From contig NZ_FMXN01000010.1 of NCBI RefSeq assembly GCF_900104245.1, positions 1 to 64,000 of the forward strand: a DNA stretch of 64,000 nt, read 5' to 3'. Made by a program: the position numbers and the translations under genes. Below, piece by piece: positions 3,086 to 7,615 of this stretch. The stretch comes from Pseudidiomarina indica (lineage in GTDB: Bacteria > Pseudomonadota > Gammaproteobacteria > Enterobacterales > Alteromonadaceae). Numbering within the stretch: the stretch's first letter is position 1; each line of letters begins with the position of its first letter. The notes below the pieces were generated by a model. That model ran no database searches. It had not been told where the DNA came from and saw only the letters and a list, made by a program, of their open reading frames with translations.

Positions 3086-3397
3086 ATGAGTCGTCGCAGT
3101 TCACGCATTTGGATTGTCTTAGGCGTTCTGGCTGCTATTGTTTTTGCAGACGAAATTTTCAGTCTATTAGGAACAGTCATCGGAGTTCTGTTTAGTATTG
3201 GAATTACGGGTTTATTGATCCTTGGCTTAGCGATTGGAGCCTTTGCCCTAGCGCTGTTTATTGGTTGCAGTGTAGGCGTAGCTCTCATTATCGCCAGTGT
3301 CGCTTTGGTCTTTAGTTTATTCGGTTGGTTACTGCCATATTTATTAGTCGGCTTTTTAGTTTATTTGCTAGTTCGTAAAAAACCGAATACTGTGTAG
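3086..3397 (+). CDS. Small hydrophobic membrane protein, unknown function
   Basis: A 103-residue protein that I do not recognise. After a basic N-terminus (MSRRSSR) it is almost continuously hydrophobic and could form three or four membrane helices (about 8-30, 32-56, 58-75, 77-95). It ends with a basic RKKPNTV tail, suggesting a cytoplasmic C-terminus. The ribosome site TTAGGAGAG precedes the ATG. The next gene, a copper chaperone, starts 31 bases later on the same strand, so co-transcription is possible. No catalytic motif is visible. Confidence 0.7.
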   Translation: MSRRSSRIWIVLGVLAAIVFADEIFSLLGTVIGVLFSIGITGLLILGLAIGAFALALFIGCSVGVALIIASVALVFSLFGWLLPYLLVGFLVYLLVRKKPNTV

Positions 3398-3428: not shown

Positions 3429-3857
3429 ATGCGCATATTAAGAAGCTTACTACTGGGCGTTTTACTGGTTCCCTTTCACTTACAAGCCGCTCAAGTGGAA
3501 ATCCATCAGCCTTGGCTGAAGGAGACGATTCCTGGGAGCGAAAATGGTGCCGCTTACCTGACCCTAACGAACACAGGCAGTGAGCCTTTGACATTGGTCG
3601 GGGCCTCAACAGCGGCTGCTCGATTAACCGAAATTCACCATCATCGCATGGCGGACGGTATGATGATCATGGAGCAGCTTCCAGAGCTAATCTTGCCCGT
3701 TGGTGAACCCGTGGTGTTTCAACCGGGCGGCCATCATTTAATGCTGTTTGGTATTAGTCAACCCTTTAAGCCAGGTGATACTGTGGATTTTGTACTCCAA
3801 TTTAGTGATGGAAATGAGGTAACATTCACTGCTGACGTACGTTCAATCCACGATTAA
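3429..3857 (+). CDS. PCu(A)C family periplasmic copper chaperone
   Basis: A 142-residue exported protein with a signal peptide ending near LQAAQ (residue 21). The mature part carries the PCu(A)C copper-binding layout: a His cluster at 70-72, Met at 74 and 81, and an HLM motif at 103-105 about 22 residues later. The family carries Cu(I) in the periplasm, often to cytochrome oxidase Cu(A) sites; no oxidase assembly gene (Sco, CtaG) is adjacent. GGAG precedes the ATG. The TIGR04219 gene follows after 11 bases, so the two probably share an mRNA. A role with the facing ABC/DUF3299 operon is an inference from proximity. Confidence 0.88.
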   Translation: MRILRSLLLGVLLVPFHLQAAQVEIHQPWLKETIPGSENGAAYLTLTNTGSEPLTLVGASTAAARLTEIHHHRMADGMMIMEQLPELILPVGEPVVFQPGGHHLMLFGISQPFKPGDTVDFVLQFSDGNEVTFTADVRSIHD

Positions 3858-3868
3858 AGGATCACACC

Positions 3869-4618
3869 ATGAAAAAACTAGCCATAGCCGCCGCGCTTCC
3901 TACACTGTTGTTAGCGGGAACGGCACAAGCCGACACGTTTTTGGGACTCTATGTGGGGGCTCAGGTTTGGGACACCAGTAATAGCGGACAGTTTGGTTCG
4001 GGGAATGGCAACCAAGGGTTTGATTTCACGGATGAGAAACAAACCAGTTTCTATGCTGCTTTTGAGCATCCGATTCCGCTGCTTCCCAATATTAAAATTC
4101 GGGAAAATGAATTAGTGACCTATGGCCTCACCACGCTCAATCAAGATTTTACCTTTAATGGGCAAGTGTATAGTGCCAATGACACCATCAATAGCTACGT
4201 GGATTTAAGCCATACCGATCTCACCCTCTATTATGAACTTTTGGATAATGACCTAGTCTCTTTAGACTTGGGTCTGACCGGTAAAAAAGTGGACGGGTGG
4301 CTGTCGATTCGTGAAGGCACTTATGAGAATGGGATTCGCAGTGATGGTTGGGTGCCCACTGGCTATGCTCACTTGCGTGTCGGTATCCCCATGACAGGGT
4401 TCACCTTGTATGGGCTTGCGAATGCGGTAAGCATCGATGACAGCGACGTGCGCGACCTTGAAGTGGGCGTGGAGTATCGTTTGGTGGATAGCCTGGCACT
4501 GGATTTGCATTTGCAGGTAGGTTATCGCGATATTCAGATTGAATTGGATGACCTCGACGGCATTGATTCCGACTTAAAATTTAAAGGGCCCTACTTAGGA
4601 TTAGAAATTCATTTCTAA
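3869..4618 (+). CDS. TIGR04219 family outer-membrane beta-barrel protein
   Basis: A 249-residue protein with a signal peptide (cleavage near AQA-D at 22) and alternating beta strands. The FLGLYVGAQVW start and the terminal GPYLGLEIHF ending in Phe fit the small outer-membrane barrels named TIGR04219. The function of this family is not known. AAGGA precedes the ATG with good spacing. It follows the copper chaperone and is convergent with the DUF3299 gene, 28 bases apart. Confidence 0.85.
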   Translation: MKKLAIAAALPTLLLAGTAQADTFLGLYVGAQVWDTSNSGQFGSGNGNQGFDFTDEKQTSFYAAFEHPIPLLPNIKIRENELVTYGLTTLNQDFTFNGQVYSANDTINSYVDLSHTDLTLYYELLDNDLVSLDLGLTGKKVDGWLSIREGTYENGIRSDGWVPTGYAHLRVGIPMTGFTLYGLANAVSIDDSDVRDLEVGVEYRLVDSLALDLHLQVGYRDIQIELDDLDGIDSDLKFKGPYLGLEIHF

Positions 4619-4629
4619 GCGGACCCATG

Positions 4630-4661
4630 AAGCCCTATGAACGGAATTAGTAATAGGGTTT
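4630..4661. repeat. Stem-loop between convergent genes
   Basis: A 9-bp inverted repeat with one G-U (AAGCCCTAT / ATAGGGTTT) spans the stop of the DUF3299 gene and the gap to the TIGR04219 gene. There is no T-run on either side, so it is only a possible 3'-end hairpin. Confidence 0.35.
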
Positions 4662-5135
4662 GACCGTGGCGGCTGTCATCCGATAGCCGACCACTGCAAT
4701 ATCGCCTTCAACCCGCTGTACTTCAATAACACCCTCAACCCAAACCGCATCAAAGGTATCCTCGTAGCGCACACCCGTTGGGAAATCCACCAGTACAATT
4801 TGATTGGGGGGTGGGGGTGGCACATGAATACAAGCACCAAAATACGGCACCAACAAAAATTGGGTGACTTTGTCCGCATCGCCCTCAAGCTGAACAACGT
4901 ACCCCGGAATCCGAATCTTTTTACCATCTAAACTTGGCACCATCGGGGCGTCGAGCTCAGGTTGAATGGCAAGCTCTGGGTTGGCATCGTAGAAGGCTTG
5001 GCTTTTCACTGGAGGTGGTTTGTATCCTTCAGGAACTAATTCTTTCCAATGAGTGGTGTGATAGGTGTCGGCGTGGGCGCTCAATGGCATGCAGGCCAGC
5101 CATACCATGGCCAGAATAGAGGCAACGTAGTTCAT
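4647..5135 (-). CDS. DUF3299 domain-containing exported protein
   Basis: A 162-residue protein with a signal peptide (cleavage near AHA-D, residue 22). The mature part has the DUF3299 hallmarks: WKELVPEGY near 31, a KKIRIPGYVV segment and the FGACIHVPPPPPNQ motif near 100, which holds the only cysteine of the mature protein. Function is not established for the family. Its ATG overlaps the permease stop by four bases, so the three genes 7083-4647 are translationally coupled. Context makes it a periplasmic partner of the ABC system, possibly in metal handling; that is inference. Confidence 0.85.
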   Translation of the reverse strand: MNYVASILAMVWLACMPLSAHADTYHTTHWKELVPEGYKPPPVKSQAFYDANPELAIQPELDAPMVPSLDGKKIRIPGYVVQLEGDADKVTQFLLVPYFGACIHVPPPPPNQIVLVDFPTGVRYEDTFDAVWVEGVIEVQRVEGDIAVVGYRMTAATVKPYY

Positions 5136-6376
5136 AGTCGAATTGTGAGTCCATCTGCTAACGCGTTACGATAGGCTCGCCACGCGGGAATTAAACTTAA
5201 CAAAACACCGGCAACGACAATCGCACCTGTCAACGTGAGTTCAGCCGTCGTCAATGGCGTTGCGCGTAATAACATACCAGTGTGTTCTAACAAAAGGTTG
5301 GAACCTAAGTGAACGATTAAAAACAGCAAACCGATCCCTAAGCCTACCCCAGCAAGGGTTAACAAAAAAGCTTCGCTGACTAGGAGGCCGAAAATAGTGA
5401 GTGGCCCCGCACCAATGGCTCGCAGTACGGCCATTTCTCGGCGGCGTTCTCGCAGACTGGCTAACAATGTCGTCAGCATGCCCAGCAAGCCGGTTGCGAC
5501 TACGAGCGTTGAAACAGCAAACAAAGCTTTTTCGAAGAGATTCAAAGTACGCCATAACTCAGTCAACGCAAGTCCGGGCATGATCGCGGTGAGGGGCTCC
5601 CCACCGTAGGTGTTAATTTGTCGCTGTAGCCGCAAGGCAAGAGGTTTATTCGTTAGACCAATTAAGACCGCACTGAGTGAGTAAACCGGCGGCTCATGAG
5701 CATGCTCATGCTCATGCCCATGAGAGGCGTCATCGATAAATTCCCCATGCACTAACCCAAGCCCAGCCAAGGGAATGTAGATGGCTTGATCGGCAGGGGT
5801 TGCGGTGGCTGCCAACACACCACGCACTACAAAGGCATGGGTATCATGGTCACTAAAGCTAATCCCCCCAGCACCGTGAGAGATGGTGAGTTCCGCACCG
5901 ACCGTCAGGTTCATCCGTTGGGCGACTTCGGCCCCAACTACCGCACCGATAGGGTCATCTTCGCTAAACCACGCCCCTTGGAGCAGCTTCAGAGGTTGCT
6001 GATTGGCATAGCGAAAGTGGTCAAAATAAGCTGGGGTGGTGGCCACCACAGGATAGCCGGCAAAGCTATCCCCTAAGGCAATGGGAATATGCCATGCAAC
6101 GCCCGGTAATTTTTGTAAATACTCGTAACTTTCCCAACGGATCGCATTGGTCATGGCGCCAATATGGAACACGCTACTTAACAGCAGCTGGGTGGAACCA
6201 GTACGAGGCCCTACAATGAGATCGGTTCCTGAAATGGTGTTGGCAAAGTTTTCTTGGGTTTGGGTGCGAACACGCTCCACCCCAAGTAATAATAAGGTAC
6301 TGACCGCAATTGCTAGGAGGGTTAACCAAGCGCTTGTTTTCCGATTCATTAAACTAGCAAACGCAAGCCGAATCAT
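5132..6376 (-). CDS. MacB/FtsX-type ABC transporter permease with His-rich loop
   Basis: A 414-residue permease with one N-terminal membrane helix (about 17-33), a large periplasmic domain (about 40-275), and three C-terminal helices (284-306, 328-352, 380-398). This is the type VII (MacB/FtsX/LolCE) layout, which works by moving periplasmic substrates or signals rather than by classic import. Unusually, residues 219-228 form a His/Glu-rich run (HGHEHEHAHE) in the periplasmic domain, a likely Zn or Cu binding segment. Both ends overlap their neighbours by four bases (ATGA). It resembles, from memory, the permease of the zinc-regulated zrg set of Vibrio cholerae, but the substrate is unproven. 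Confidence 0.88.
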   Translation of the reverse strand: MIRLAFASLMNRKTSAWLTLLAIAVSTLLLLGVERVRTQTQENFANTISGTDLIVGPRTGSTQLLLSSVFHIGAMTNAIRWESYEYLQKLPGVAWHIPIALGDSFAGYPVVATTPAYFDHFRYANQQPLKLLQGAWFSEDDPIGAVVGAEVAQRMNLTVGAELTISHGAGGISFSDHDTHAFVVRGVLAATATPADQAIYIPLAGLGLVHGEFIDDASHGHEHEHAHEPPVYSLSAVLIGLTNKPLALRLQRQINTYGGEPLTAIMPGLALTELWRTLNLFEKALFAVSTLVVATGLLGMLTTLLASLRERRREMAVLRAIGAGPLTIFGLLVSEAFLLTLAGVGLGIGLLFLIVHLGSNLLLEHTGMLLRATPLTTAELTLTGAIVVAGVLLSLIPAWRAYRNALADGLTIRL

Positions 6377-7083
6377 TGCTGAACTCCTGTCGCTTGGTTA
6401 ATTTCACCCAATTCAATCGCACGTTCAAAGTGATGTGCAAGGCTGCCGTCGTGGGTGACAAACAAGAGCGTTGTGCCATGGGCCTGGCAGGCGTCAAACA
6501 GAACTTCGATAAAGTTATCCCGATGGTCGCTGTCGAGCGCAGAGGTTGGCTCATCAGCAATAATAAGGGCTGGGTGACCGAATAATGCACGCGCCGCGGC
6601 AACTCGCTGCTGTTGACCGACACTGAGTTGATGGGCTGGCCGCAAACTATCTTGTTCGCTTAACCCCAGCTGCTGTAACAGTTGGAGTGCTAATTCACGG
6701 GGTGTGCCGGTTGCTTTAGCGAGGCGTTGAACCCGGGCGGGCGCAAATTTTGCTGCCAACATGACATTCTGCACCGCAGATAGGTATGGAAGTAAGTTAA
6801 ATTGCTGAAAGATATAGCCTATTTCATTGGCGCGTAACCGATCACGTTGCCGCTGCGACAACTTGGCGAGGTCTTGCCCCAGCACCTGAACTTGATTGGG
6901 TTTGGCTTGATGAACGCCGGCTATCAGGCTGAGTAGCGTTGATTTACCGGACCCGCTGGCCCCCCGCAATAACACACGTTCGCCGCGTTCAATTTGCAGG
7001 TGAGGAATTTGGAGCAGCGGGGTGGAGGCACCTGGCCATTGGAACGCTAATTGACGCAGCTCAATGCAGGTGCCTTGTGTCAT
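6373..7083 (-). CDS. ABC transporter ATP-binding protein (MacB/LolD type)
   Basis: A 236-residue ATPase with Walker A GASGSGKST (41-49), a Q-loop FQQFN, signature LSVGQQQR (153-160) and Walker B LIIADEPTSALD (173-184). I chose the ATG at 7083, just after the ppa stop, because a longer reading frame to 7158 runs inside ppa and adds 25 low-complexity residues before the conserved domain. The signature SVGQ in place of SGGQ is common in LolD/MacB-type ATPases. It pairs with the overlapping permease. Confidence 0.9.
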   Translation of the reverse strand: MTQGTCIELRQLAFQWPGASTPLLQIPHLQIERGERVLLRGASGSGKSTLLSLIAGVHQAKPNQVQVLGQDLAKLSQRQRDRLRANEIGYIFQQFNLLPYLSAVQNVMLAAKFAPARVQRLAKATGTPRELALQLLQQLGLSEQDSLRPAHQLSVGQQQRVAAARALFGHPALIIADEPTSALDSDHRDNFIEVLFDACQAHGTTLLFVTHDGSLAHHFERAIELGEINQATGVQQ

Positions 7084-7084
7084 G

Positions 7085-7615
7085 TTACTGCTGCTTGGCA
7101 CGTTCGAAGGAGGAGACAATTTCGTCTTTAGCGGCATTGATGTCGCCCCAGCCATCAATTTTCACCCACTTCCCTTTTTCTAACTCTTTGTAACGCTCAA
7201 AGAAGTGCATGATTTGTGCTTTTAGCAGCTCAGGTAAATCGCCAATGTCTTGAATGTGATCGTATTCTTTGGTCAATTTACTCACCGGTACCGCAATCAC
7301 TTTCGCATCTTGTCCTGACTCGTCGGTCATATGCAAGACACCAACAGGACGGCATTTGATCACTGAGCCTGGTTGGAGCGGGTAAGGTGTTGGCACCAAC
7401 ACATCGACCGGGTCACCATCCAGTGACAACGTTTCGTTGATGAAACCATAATTGCACGGATAAAACATCGGAGTTGCCATAAAGCGGTCAACCCATAAGG
7501 TGCCGGTGTCTTTATCCACTTCATATTTGATTGGATCAGCATTTGCTGGGATCTCAATGATAACATTGACTTCTTCTGGCAGGTTTTTTCCTGCACTGAC
7601 GTGACTTAGGCTCAT
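7085..7615 (-). CDS. ppa: Inorganic pyrophosphatase
   Basis: A 176-residue soluble family I pyrophosphatase (E. coli Ppa is 176), hydrolysing the pyrophosphate released in biosynthesis. Visible motifs include the substrate-binding KYEVDKDTG and the metal-binding signature DGDPVDVLV (around 65-73). It lies 42 bases downstream of fbp on the same strand and one base ahead of the ABC ATPase gene. Confidence 0.97.

Follow-up and report, generated by a model that had tools for sequence, protein, structure and literature searches.

The ZrgABCDE system of Vibrio cholerae and V. parahaemolyticus, which belongs to a type of zinc-starvation system also described in Pseudomonas, combines an ABC ATPase, a MacB-type permease and a DUF3299 protein. 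According to the portion available of the V. parahaemolyticus work (PMC9817125, table 1), zrgA encodes a DUF2796 protein, zrgB the permease, zrgC the ATPase and zrgE the DUF3299 protein, and it has been reported that zrgA is required for zrg-dependent growth of V. cholerae at low zinc (PMC9820375). The same three protein families are found in PA4063-PA4066 of Pseudomonas aeruginosa, where the DUF3299 protein is PA4066 (structure 4hsp). In the sections of these works available to us, the direction of transport is read as zinc import in Vibrio and as metallophore export in P. aeruginosa, and no metal site on the Zrg permease is described. Two further systems are relevant: the MacB/LolCDE/FtsEX superfamily, to which the permease is related by its domains, and the zinc importer ZnuABC, where the component meeting zinc first, ZnuA, carries a disordered His-rich stretch, as described in the part consulted of PMC9820375.

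The window of our study, a stretch of 64,000 nucleotides of Pseudidiomarina indica (contig NZ_FMXN01000010.1), contains on its minus strand three overlapping genes that, judged from their sequences, are zrgC, zrgB and zrgE of this system. The zrgC-like gene (6373-7083, 236 aa; PF00005 (ABC_tran), 105 bits), whose orthologues are kept in the genus, is followed by the zrgB-like gene for a MacB-type permease (5132-6376, 414 aa; FtsX 55 bits and MacB_PCD 51 bits, both above their cut-offs) and by the zrgE-like gene for a DUF3299 protein (4647-5135, 162 aa; PF11736, 146 bits). Both overlaps are formed by ATGA (6373-6376 for zrgC/zrgB, 5132-5135 for zrgB/zrgE). The DUF3299 protein has a solved relative in 4hsp (E 3.5e-33), and its residues C102 and H104 are invariant in 184/184 aligned rows. 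Facing these genes on the plus strand are a PCu(A)C copper chaperone (3429-3857; PF04314, 123 bits) and a TIGR04219 outer-membrane barrel (3869-4618; 247 bits against a cut-off of 105). By eye, the chaperone translation fits the copper motif H(M)X10MX21HXM. All these genes lie at the positions given when checked against the sequence and its open reading frames, so that the genes, overlaps and convergent neighbours described by the sequence-only reading stand, as does the likeness to the Vibrio zrg genes that it had noted, which agrees with the family assignments available for V. parahaemolyticus (PMC9817125).

Unlike in Vibrio, the zrg genes of the window directly follow ppa, the gene for inorganic pyrophosphatase (7085-7615, minus strand; NF002317, 305 bits), with a single base between the ppa stop (7085) and the zrgC ATG (7083). 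This adjacency is retained at all Pseudidiomarina loci long enough to show both genes, and ppa and zrgCBE are probably cotranscribed. In the window ppa and zrgC are direct neighbours, so that ZrgD (DUF2607) is not encoded between them. Both ppa and fbp precede zrgC on the same strand, a point absent from the sequence-only reading.

A Zur site before the ATPase gene, which that reading had proposed to look for, was searched for and not found: no Zur-like box with up to two mismatches occurs in the region, and with up to three mismatches there are only two matches, each with three, inside the coding sequences of zrgE and zrgB. Zur-like boxes lie upstream of only 1/43 ppa-linked loci against 0.7 expected, which is not above chance (L187, with ppa at a distance of 1.4 kb, is counted in this group), while they lie upstream of 13/38 loci that have at least three loop histidines and no ppa link, against 0.4 expected (His groups defined at this threshold, with four loci that have no assigned state kept apart). 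Zur control of the zrg copy in the window is thus not supported. Our searches of the open-licence PMC literature found nothing linking Idiomarina with Zur and zinc.

A second difference from the Vibrio and Pseudomonas systems, of which the latter retains the ZrgA homologue PA4063, concerns the binding protein. A genome-wide search for ZrgA/DUF2796 (PF10986) gave no match in P. indica and was positive in 0/25 Pseudidiomarina genomes, although the same search was positive in 39/78 related genomes overall; the DUF2796 partner that the sequence-only reading did not see in the window was not found in the rest of the genome either. The ZnuABC system also differs from the locus in its permease family, and the P. 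indica genome gave no match to a ZnuB-type permease (ABC-3, PF00950). Above 29 bits, ZnuB-family matches were found in 0/69 genomes of the family, against 10/11 genomes from other families with at least 151 bits. In 15 genomes of the family PF00950 matched weakly, with scores that did not exceed 29 bits, in open frames of 318-398 aa; some of these matches lie above the low family cut-off, and they may be FecCD-type permeases. The locus is a ZrgA-less variant of the known Zrg system, probably one that handles zinc.

The permease contains a variable stretch (residues 211-235; 5672-5746, minus strand), often a His-rich insert in permeases without nearby ZrgA. In the window it includes the run HGHEHEHAHE (residues 219-228; 5693-5722, minus strand), which had been singled out in the sequence-only reading. 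In the predicted model, the permease has a pLDDT of 92 and residues 211-230 one of 65-67. The run is more than a chance feature of one protein: 3-12 histidines occur at this site in all 24 scored Pseudidiomarina permeases, a set that includes the window's own and omits one truncated at the end of its contig, despite a between-species identity of 24% in the stretch against 70-76% in its flanks. Histidine makes up 21% of the loop site compared with 1.3% in permeases beside ZrgA, its codons are mixed (CAT/CAC) in 70/77 His loops, and the residue between the histidines varies. Among the open-licence PMC matches listed, a His loop in ZrgB is not described.

The loop and nearby ZrgA largely exclude each other across the permeases compared. 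Among 212 non-redundant ZrgB permeases, at least four histidines occur at the loop site in 1/105 with zrgA nearby and in 77/99 without, 42 of these 77 being from Idiomarina-type relatives; the remaining eight could not be scored for ZrgA (L045, L160, L245, L246, L258, L314, L331, L338). A zrgA gene was counted as nearby when a purpose-built ZrgA profile, seeded from loci of our survey of related genomes and then refined, matched in the fetched stretch of 1.5 to about 8 kb per side, sometimes cut by a contig end. The four-His threshold was adopted after inspection of 67 permeases; at least three histidines gives 82:2 (without versus with nearby zrgA) and at least five gives 70:0. It is important to consider that the genome contigs were scanned with six search peptides, HEHEHAHE among them, so that the sample is enriched in His-rich permeases, which biases their His state but not its link to ZrgA. 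The exclusion survives control for kinship on the tree: independent pairs were about 8:0 on the FastTree tree (8 undecided, median p 0.008) and 6:0 on the IQ-TREE tree (135 rows, starred branches; 6 undecided, p 0.03), and the loop state changed 14-15 times on the trees, never siding with ZrgA in any pair. In all four two-copy genomes read, the ZrgA-linked copy is the poorer in histidine (unlinked versus linked, 10 versus 1 in G528, 13 versus 1 in G539, 5 versus 1 in G400 and 3 versus 0 in G391). In G400, the ZrgA-linked zrgB is split across two open frames. Together, the counts, the pairs and the two-copy genomes support, at the level of sequence, the earlier idea of a loop in the permease that could stand in for ZrgA.

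The rule is mainly one-way, since 22 of the 99 permeases without nearby ZrgA also lack four histidines (five of them have three). Neither ZrgA nor a His loop was present at L344, L345, L347, L325, L334, L330 and L310, and no ZrgA substitute was recognised among the open reading frames of L193, L194, L225, L226, L230 and L231. In addition, six genomes with a His-loop ZrgB (L368-L372 and L382) also have a ZrgA gene whose fetched surroundings contain no zrgB, and the loss of ZrgA is accordingly incomplete there.

The periplasmic domain of ZrgB (about residues 46-266 in the window), in which the loop lies, carries five residues that are invariant in 212/212 permeases and are proposed as metal ligands next to the loop: Asp103 (6068-6070), His167 (5876-5878), His177 (5846-5848), Asp196 (5789-5791) and His210 (5747-5749), all on the minus strand, the last directly before the His-rich stretch. 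This D/H core is kept in 4/4 divergent relatives and is absent as a set from 3/3 Escherichia coli controls (MacB, LolC and LolE), which have other residues at Asp103, although LolE has an aligned histidine at His177. The permease belongs to the MacB/LolCDE/FtsEX superfamily by its FtsX and MacB_PCD domains and its fold (Z about 18-25 to 5xu1, LolE and MacB, compared by Foldseek and VIA-align); this core and the separate ATPase gene set it apart. A MacB tripartite pump proper was rejected, the ATPase not being fused to the permease and no MacA-type protein occurring among the eight locus proteins scanned. Outside the core, residue 248 (5633-5635, minus strand) is Phe in 103/105 ZrgA-linked permeases, and Leu or Ile without ZrgA, with Leu in the window. 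When nine positions differing between the groups were put through independent pairs, it alone reached an uncorrected p of 0.03; R109, Y67, H105, A208, Y157, P231, N78 and G112 had median p values not below 0.05 and were discarded as ZrgA-contact candidates. On the IQ-TREE tree, the p value for F248 is 0.125, for which reason we propose this residue only as a weak candidate for a ZrgA contact. Phe248 also persists in some loop-poor permeases that have no ZrgA nearby (L230, L239, L241, L249 and L326).

Our main reading, with a probability of roughly 0.6, is that this Zrg system works without ZrgA and that the flexible His/Glu-rich ZrgB loop does the zinc collecting done elsewhere by ZrgA. The loop (residues 211-235) would loosely bind periplasmic zinc and hand it to the core site of Asp103, His167, His177, Asp196 and His210, after which ZrgC, hydrolysing ATP, would power onward movement of the metal by the FtsX-type membrane domain, helped by ZrgE. 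In this scheme we infer the binding of zinc to loop and core, its hand-over and the direction of transport. Beside the exclusion of loop and nearby ZrgA, the Zur-like boxes before His-loop loci that have no ppa link and the lack of strong ZnuB matches in the family speak for this reading; the His-poor permeases without nearby ZrgA, the six genomes that still have a ZrgA gene, the split zrgB of G400, the large share of Idiomarina-type relatives among the His-loop permeases and the lack of a Zur box before the operon of the window speak against it. Two published results also count against it, as far as the available parts of the papers describe them: the His-rich stretch of V. cholerae ZrgA is itself dispensable (PMC9820375), and PA4063-PA4066 has been assigned to cobalt-pyochelin export rather than zinc import (PMC11481552).

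The latter result, obtained with PA4065, leads to the strongest rival, which we consider unlikely: the loop would sense zinc or act as a gate in an exporter in which ZrgBC, by mechanotransmission like that of MacB/LolCDE, moves a metallophore or other molecule out, ZrgA or the loop reporting periplasmic zinc. The MacB/LolE/FtsX fold would suit such a role, as would the micromolar affinity of PA4063, for which a sensor role has been suggested in the passages seen of PMC8561739 and PMC9820375; however, the V. cholerae (PMC9820375) and V. parahaemolyticus (PMC9817125) phenotypes are read by their authors, in the text available, as zinc uptake, and the invariant D/H set fits metal ligands carried by the permease itself, although such a set could equally serve a sensor. 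The loop could also be relaxed, neutral low-complexity sequence, its repeats accumulating in a tolerant linker once ZrgA no longer docks. Its widely varying length and sequence, the runs of HE or HD that make up some loops and the 22 His-poor permeases without nearby ZrgA would all be expected from this, yet we hold it to be quite improbable, given that histidine is enriched while codons and intervening residues vary, that the repeated changes of state never place the loop with ZrgA in an independent pair, and that at least three histidines persist in every scored permease of the genus.

The view of the sequence-only reading, that PCuAC and the TIGR04219 barrel cooperate with the ABC genes in one envelope system for copper and zinc, retains hardly any credence. 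Both neighbours lie next to zrg where it is linked to ppa, in Pseudidiomarina, Aliidiomarina and part of Idiomarina (among the 28 non-redundant ppa-linked loci that extend 3.2 kb or more downstream, 26 have PCuAC and 27 the barrel), a conservation that speaks for it, but either neighbour occurs in only 1/140 other non-redundant loci, L045, itself a contig fragment of Pseudidiomarina. Because the TonB receptor and fbp genes are also kept, the whole region is syntenic and this adjacency says little; moreover, PCuAC and the barrel are convergent to zrg on the opposite strand, and so probably form a separate transcription unit. We therefore rejected the copper link, with no co-occurrence beyond the Idiomarina-group loci, while for zrgCBE itself both the co-occurrence of the families and the His run in orthologous permeases, whose absence would have weakened the earlier proposal, were found.

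The mutual exclusion of His-rich loop and nearby ZrgA argues that ZrgA acts at the permease and that histidines located there can take its place, and the comparison names five invariant candidate ligands together with one weaker candidate docking residue. We tentatively suggest, at slightly less than even odds, that the binding protein was replaced several times by an unstructured His-rich loop within the permease, beside an invariant Asp/His site, and that residue 248 might mark the docking face of ZrgA. To our knowledge, no ABC metal importer of the MacB fold that does without a binding protein has been described before, so that these would be the first. As the 69 genomes of the family gave no strong ZnuB match, Zrg-type systems may be a main ABC route for zinc in these common marine bacteria.

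The ABC ATPase (6373-7083), MacB-type permease (5132-6376) and DUF3299 protein (4647-5135) are encoded on the reverse strand, downstream of fbp and ppa (inorganic pyrophosphatase); two ATGA overlaps join all three genes, a single base lies between the ppa stop and the ATPase start, and this copy is probably cotranscribed with ppa. The overlapping operon, convergent to genes for a PCu(A)C chaperone and a TIGR04219 barrel as the sequence-only reading had described it, was confirmed in the sequence. The accessible part of one report describes a Zur-repressed operon of Vibrio parahaemolyticus composed of zrgD (DUF2607), zrgA (DUF2796), zrgC (ATPase), zrgB (permease) and zrgE (DUF3299) (PMC9817125). 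Judged by sequence, the window genes correspond to zrgC, zrgB and zrgE, which both operons share, whereas ZrgA was not found in a search of the window's own genome (2.2 Mb, 31 contigs, 99.9% complete) or of 25 genus genomes; the same search was positive in 39 of 78 genomes. In the family, 235 of 295 genomes gave a DUF3299 match, 231 a ZrgB-like permease at an E-value of at most 1e-50, and 114 a ZrgA. The search of the window's own genome found no ZnuB family member; none of the ZnuB matches in 69 family genomes exceeded 29 bits (15 had a weak match of that kind), and of the 11 genomes taken from elsewhere in the same order, outside the family, 10 matched at 151 bits or more. The 103-aa hydrophobic protein encoded at 3086-3397 had no match in Pfam or NCBIfam; 23 of the 24 loci of the genus have it in this position.

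In the genus, the histidine-rich stretch of the permease occupies a single site of variable length directly after the invariant His210, with 3 to 12 histidines in all 24 scored permeases, the window included; in a scan of named genomes, the window permease had its nearest relatives in Pseudidiomarina species. According to the sequences compared, the His loop (at least four histidines at this site, window residues 211-235) and a nearby ZrgA (a profile match within the 1.5 to about 8 kb fetched on each side of zrgB) are mutually exclusive. An initial set of 127 permeases had the loop in 1 of 48 with zrgA nearby, in 61 of 68 from genomes without a ZrgA match and in 8 of 11 from genomes that carry ZrgA at another locus. 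A class-level sample provided 29 loci besides the window, all with two histidines or fewer, and ZrgA accompanied 19 of these short loci. The named-genome scan yielded 80 loci: the 26 of the Idiomarina group carry 4 to 29 histidines with no ZrgA seen, the 35 others with ZrgA carry at most one each, and at least four are present in 6 of the 19 remaining loci, where the fetched stretch showed no ZrgA. These six include the alphaproteobacteria Marinicauda and Woodsholea, a Lysobacterales MAG and a Bdellovibrionota MAG. In the combined non-redundant set of 212 permeases (ZrgA state not scorable in 8 rows), at least four histidines occur in 77 of 99 without nearby ZrgA versus 1 of 105 with it. That sole linked permease with four histidines (L216, genome G521) falls inside the His-loop group; its zrgA, between ppa and zrgC, is divergent (54 bits) and may be a relic or an intermediate. 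The most extreme loop (L117, genome G097) has 135 residues and 34 histidines in a permease of 523 aa, with no ZrgA nearby. A public MAG bears the title Klebsiella pneumoniae and is perhaps mislabelled: its zrg locus (L316) is similar to loci from uncultured proteobacteria in the same set.

The loop is not a mere DNA repeat, since 70 of the 77 loops use both His codons, the residue between two loop histidines varies (Glu, Asp, Ala, Gly, Gln, Ser, Asn and others), and histidine makes up 21% of loop residues versus 1.3% at the same site beside ZrgA. The 42 Idiomarina-type permeases among the 77 with a His loop are not independent; trees for kinship control were built with the loop columns excluded. 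On the FastTree tree (212 rows) the His state changes 14 times, and among independent pairs differing in ZrgA the histidines moved oppositely in about 8, in the same direction in none and not at all in about 8 (median p 0.008). The IQ-TREE tree (135 rows, starred branches only) gave 15 changes and pairs of 6:0 with 6 undecided (p 0.03). Four genomes were read with two zrgB copies, one beside zrgA and the other not: the linked copy has 1 histidine versus 10 in G528 (L202/L201), 1 versus 13 in G539 (L206/L365), 1 versus 5 in G400 (L367/L213) and 0 versus 3 in G391 (L373/L227); the linked gene of G400 runs over two open frames, which may reflect decay or a sequencing error.

Asp103, His167, His177, Asp196 and His210 are conserved without exception in the 212 permeases and in the four divergent relatives compared, and constitute a candidate metal site; this set distinguishes ZrgB from E. 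coli MacB, LolC and LolE, where a simple alignment does not recover it as a set (in LolE, one of the five positions is His). The ZrgB model adopts the MacB/LolE/FtsX fold with a mean pLDDT of 92, falling to 65-67 for residues 211-230. Of the permeases beside ZrgA, 103 of 105 carry Phe248, compared with 3 of the 77 that have a His loop and 6 of the 22 that have neither; position 248 was one of nine tested, with an independent-pair p of 0.03 or, on the IQ-TREE tree, 0.125. Six of the genomes read have ZrgA unlinked to a loop-poor zrgB, with Phe248 in G374, G340, G368 and G417 and Leu in G485 and G391, which partly fits a ZrgA acting in trans. ZrgE contains a Cys-x-His followed by a proline run (C102 and H104 in 184 of 184), possibly a metal site; its solved structural relative is 4hsp, identified as PA4066 of P. 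aeruginosa in the accessible part of PMC8561739, and that of PMC11481552 reports no evident zinc binding by PA4066.

The proposed link to the copper chaperone was not supported by the loci compared. Of the non-redundant ppa-linked loci of Idiomarina type, 28 extend at least 3.2 kb downstream; PCuAC lies beside zrg in 26 of these and the barrel in 27. Among 140 other non-redundant loci (120 with at least 3 kb downstream), L045, a genus fragment, is alone in having either. Synteny in the genus extends over the wider region, including the TonB receptor and fbp, and the adjacency is therefore weak evidence. At nine loci (L115, L118, L119, L128, L130, L131, L134, L136 and L138), a DUF3299 gene was found close to ppa and fbp and the fetched stretch contained no zrgB, as if only zrgE had stayed at the ppa locus. 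In G569, ZrgE stands beside ppa without zrgCB there (L366) and a ZrgA-type copy (L207) exists in the same genome; the His-loop copy was perhaps lost after the other was gained.

Zur-like palindromes (up to 2 mismatches, expectations from shuffles; His-loop loci counted here from three histidines) precede 44 of 105 ZrgA-type loci versus 1.9 expected, 13 of 38 His-loop loci without a ppa link versus 0.4, 1 of 43 ppa-linked His-loop loci versus 0.7, and none of 17 loci with neither ZrgA nor loop. These counts suggest zinc control for some His-loop forms outside the Idiomarina group; the scan gave no sign of zinc control for the window copy. The window genome encodes, in addition to Fur, a Zur-like regulator; the 119-aa stretch supplied for it scored 149 bits against a cut-off of 167.

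Several observations count against the loop as a zinc collector: fewer than four histidines are present in 22 permeases that lack a nearby ZrgA, and six genomes with a His-loop permease keep a ZrgA gene elsewhere (L368, L369, L370, L371, L372 and L382), with no zrgB in the stretch fetched. Moreover, the accessible part of PMC9820375 describes the His-rich stretch of V. cholerae ZrgA as dispensable, and therefore loss of ZrgA costs more than histidines. A P. aeruginosa relative is assigned to cobalt-pyochelin export in the available portion of PMC11481552, which also counts against a collector; the main rival, a zinc-gated exporter, seems to us unlikely. Among the papers listed in searches of the open-licence literature, as far as their text was accessible, none describes a His-rich loop in ZrgB. 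We favour, with a probability of about 0.6, the His loop as a built-in zinc collector that would gather zinc in place of ZrgA and pass it to the core site of ZrgB.
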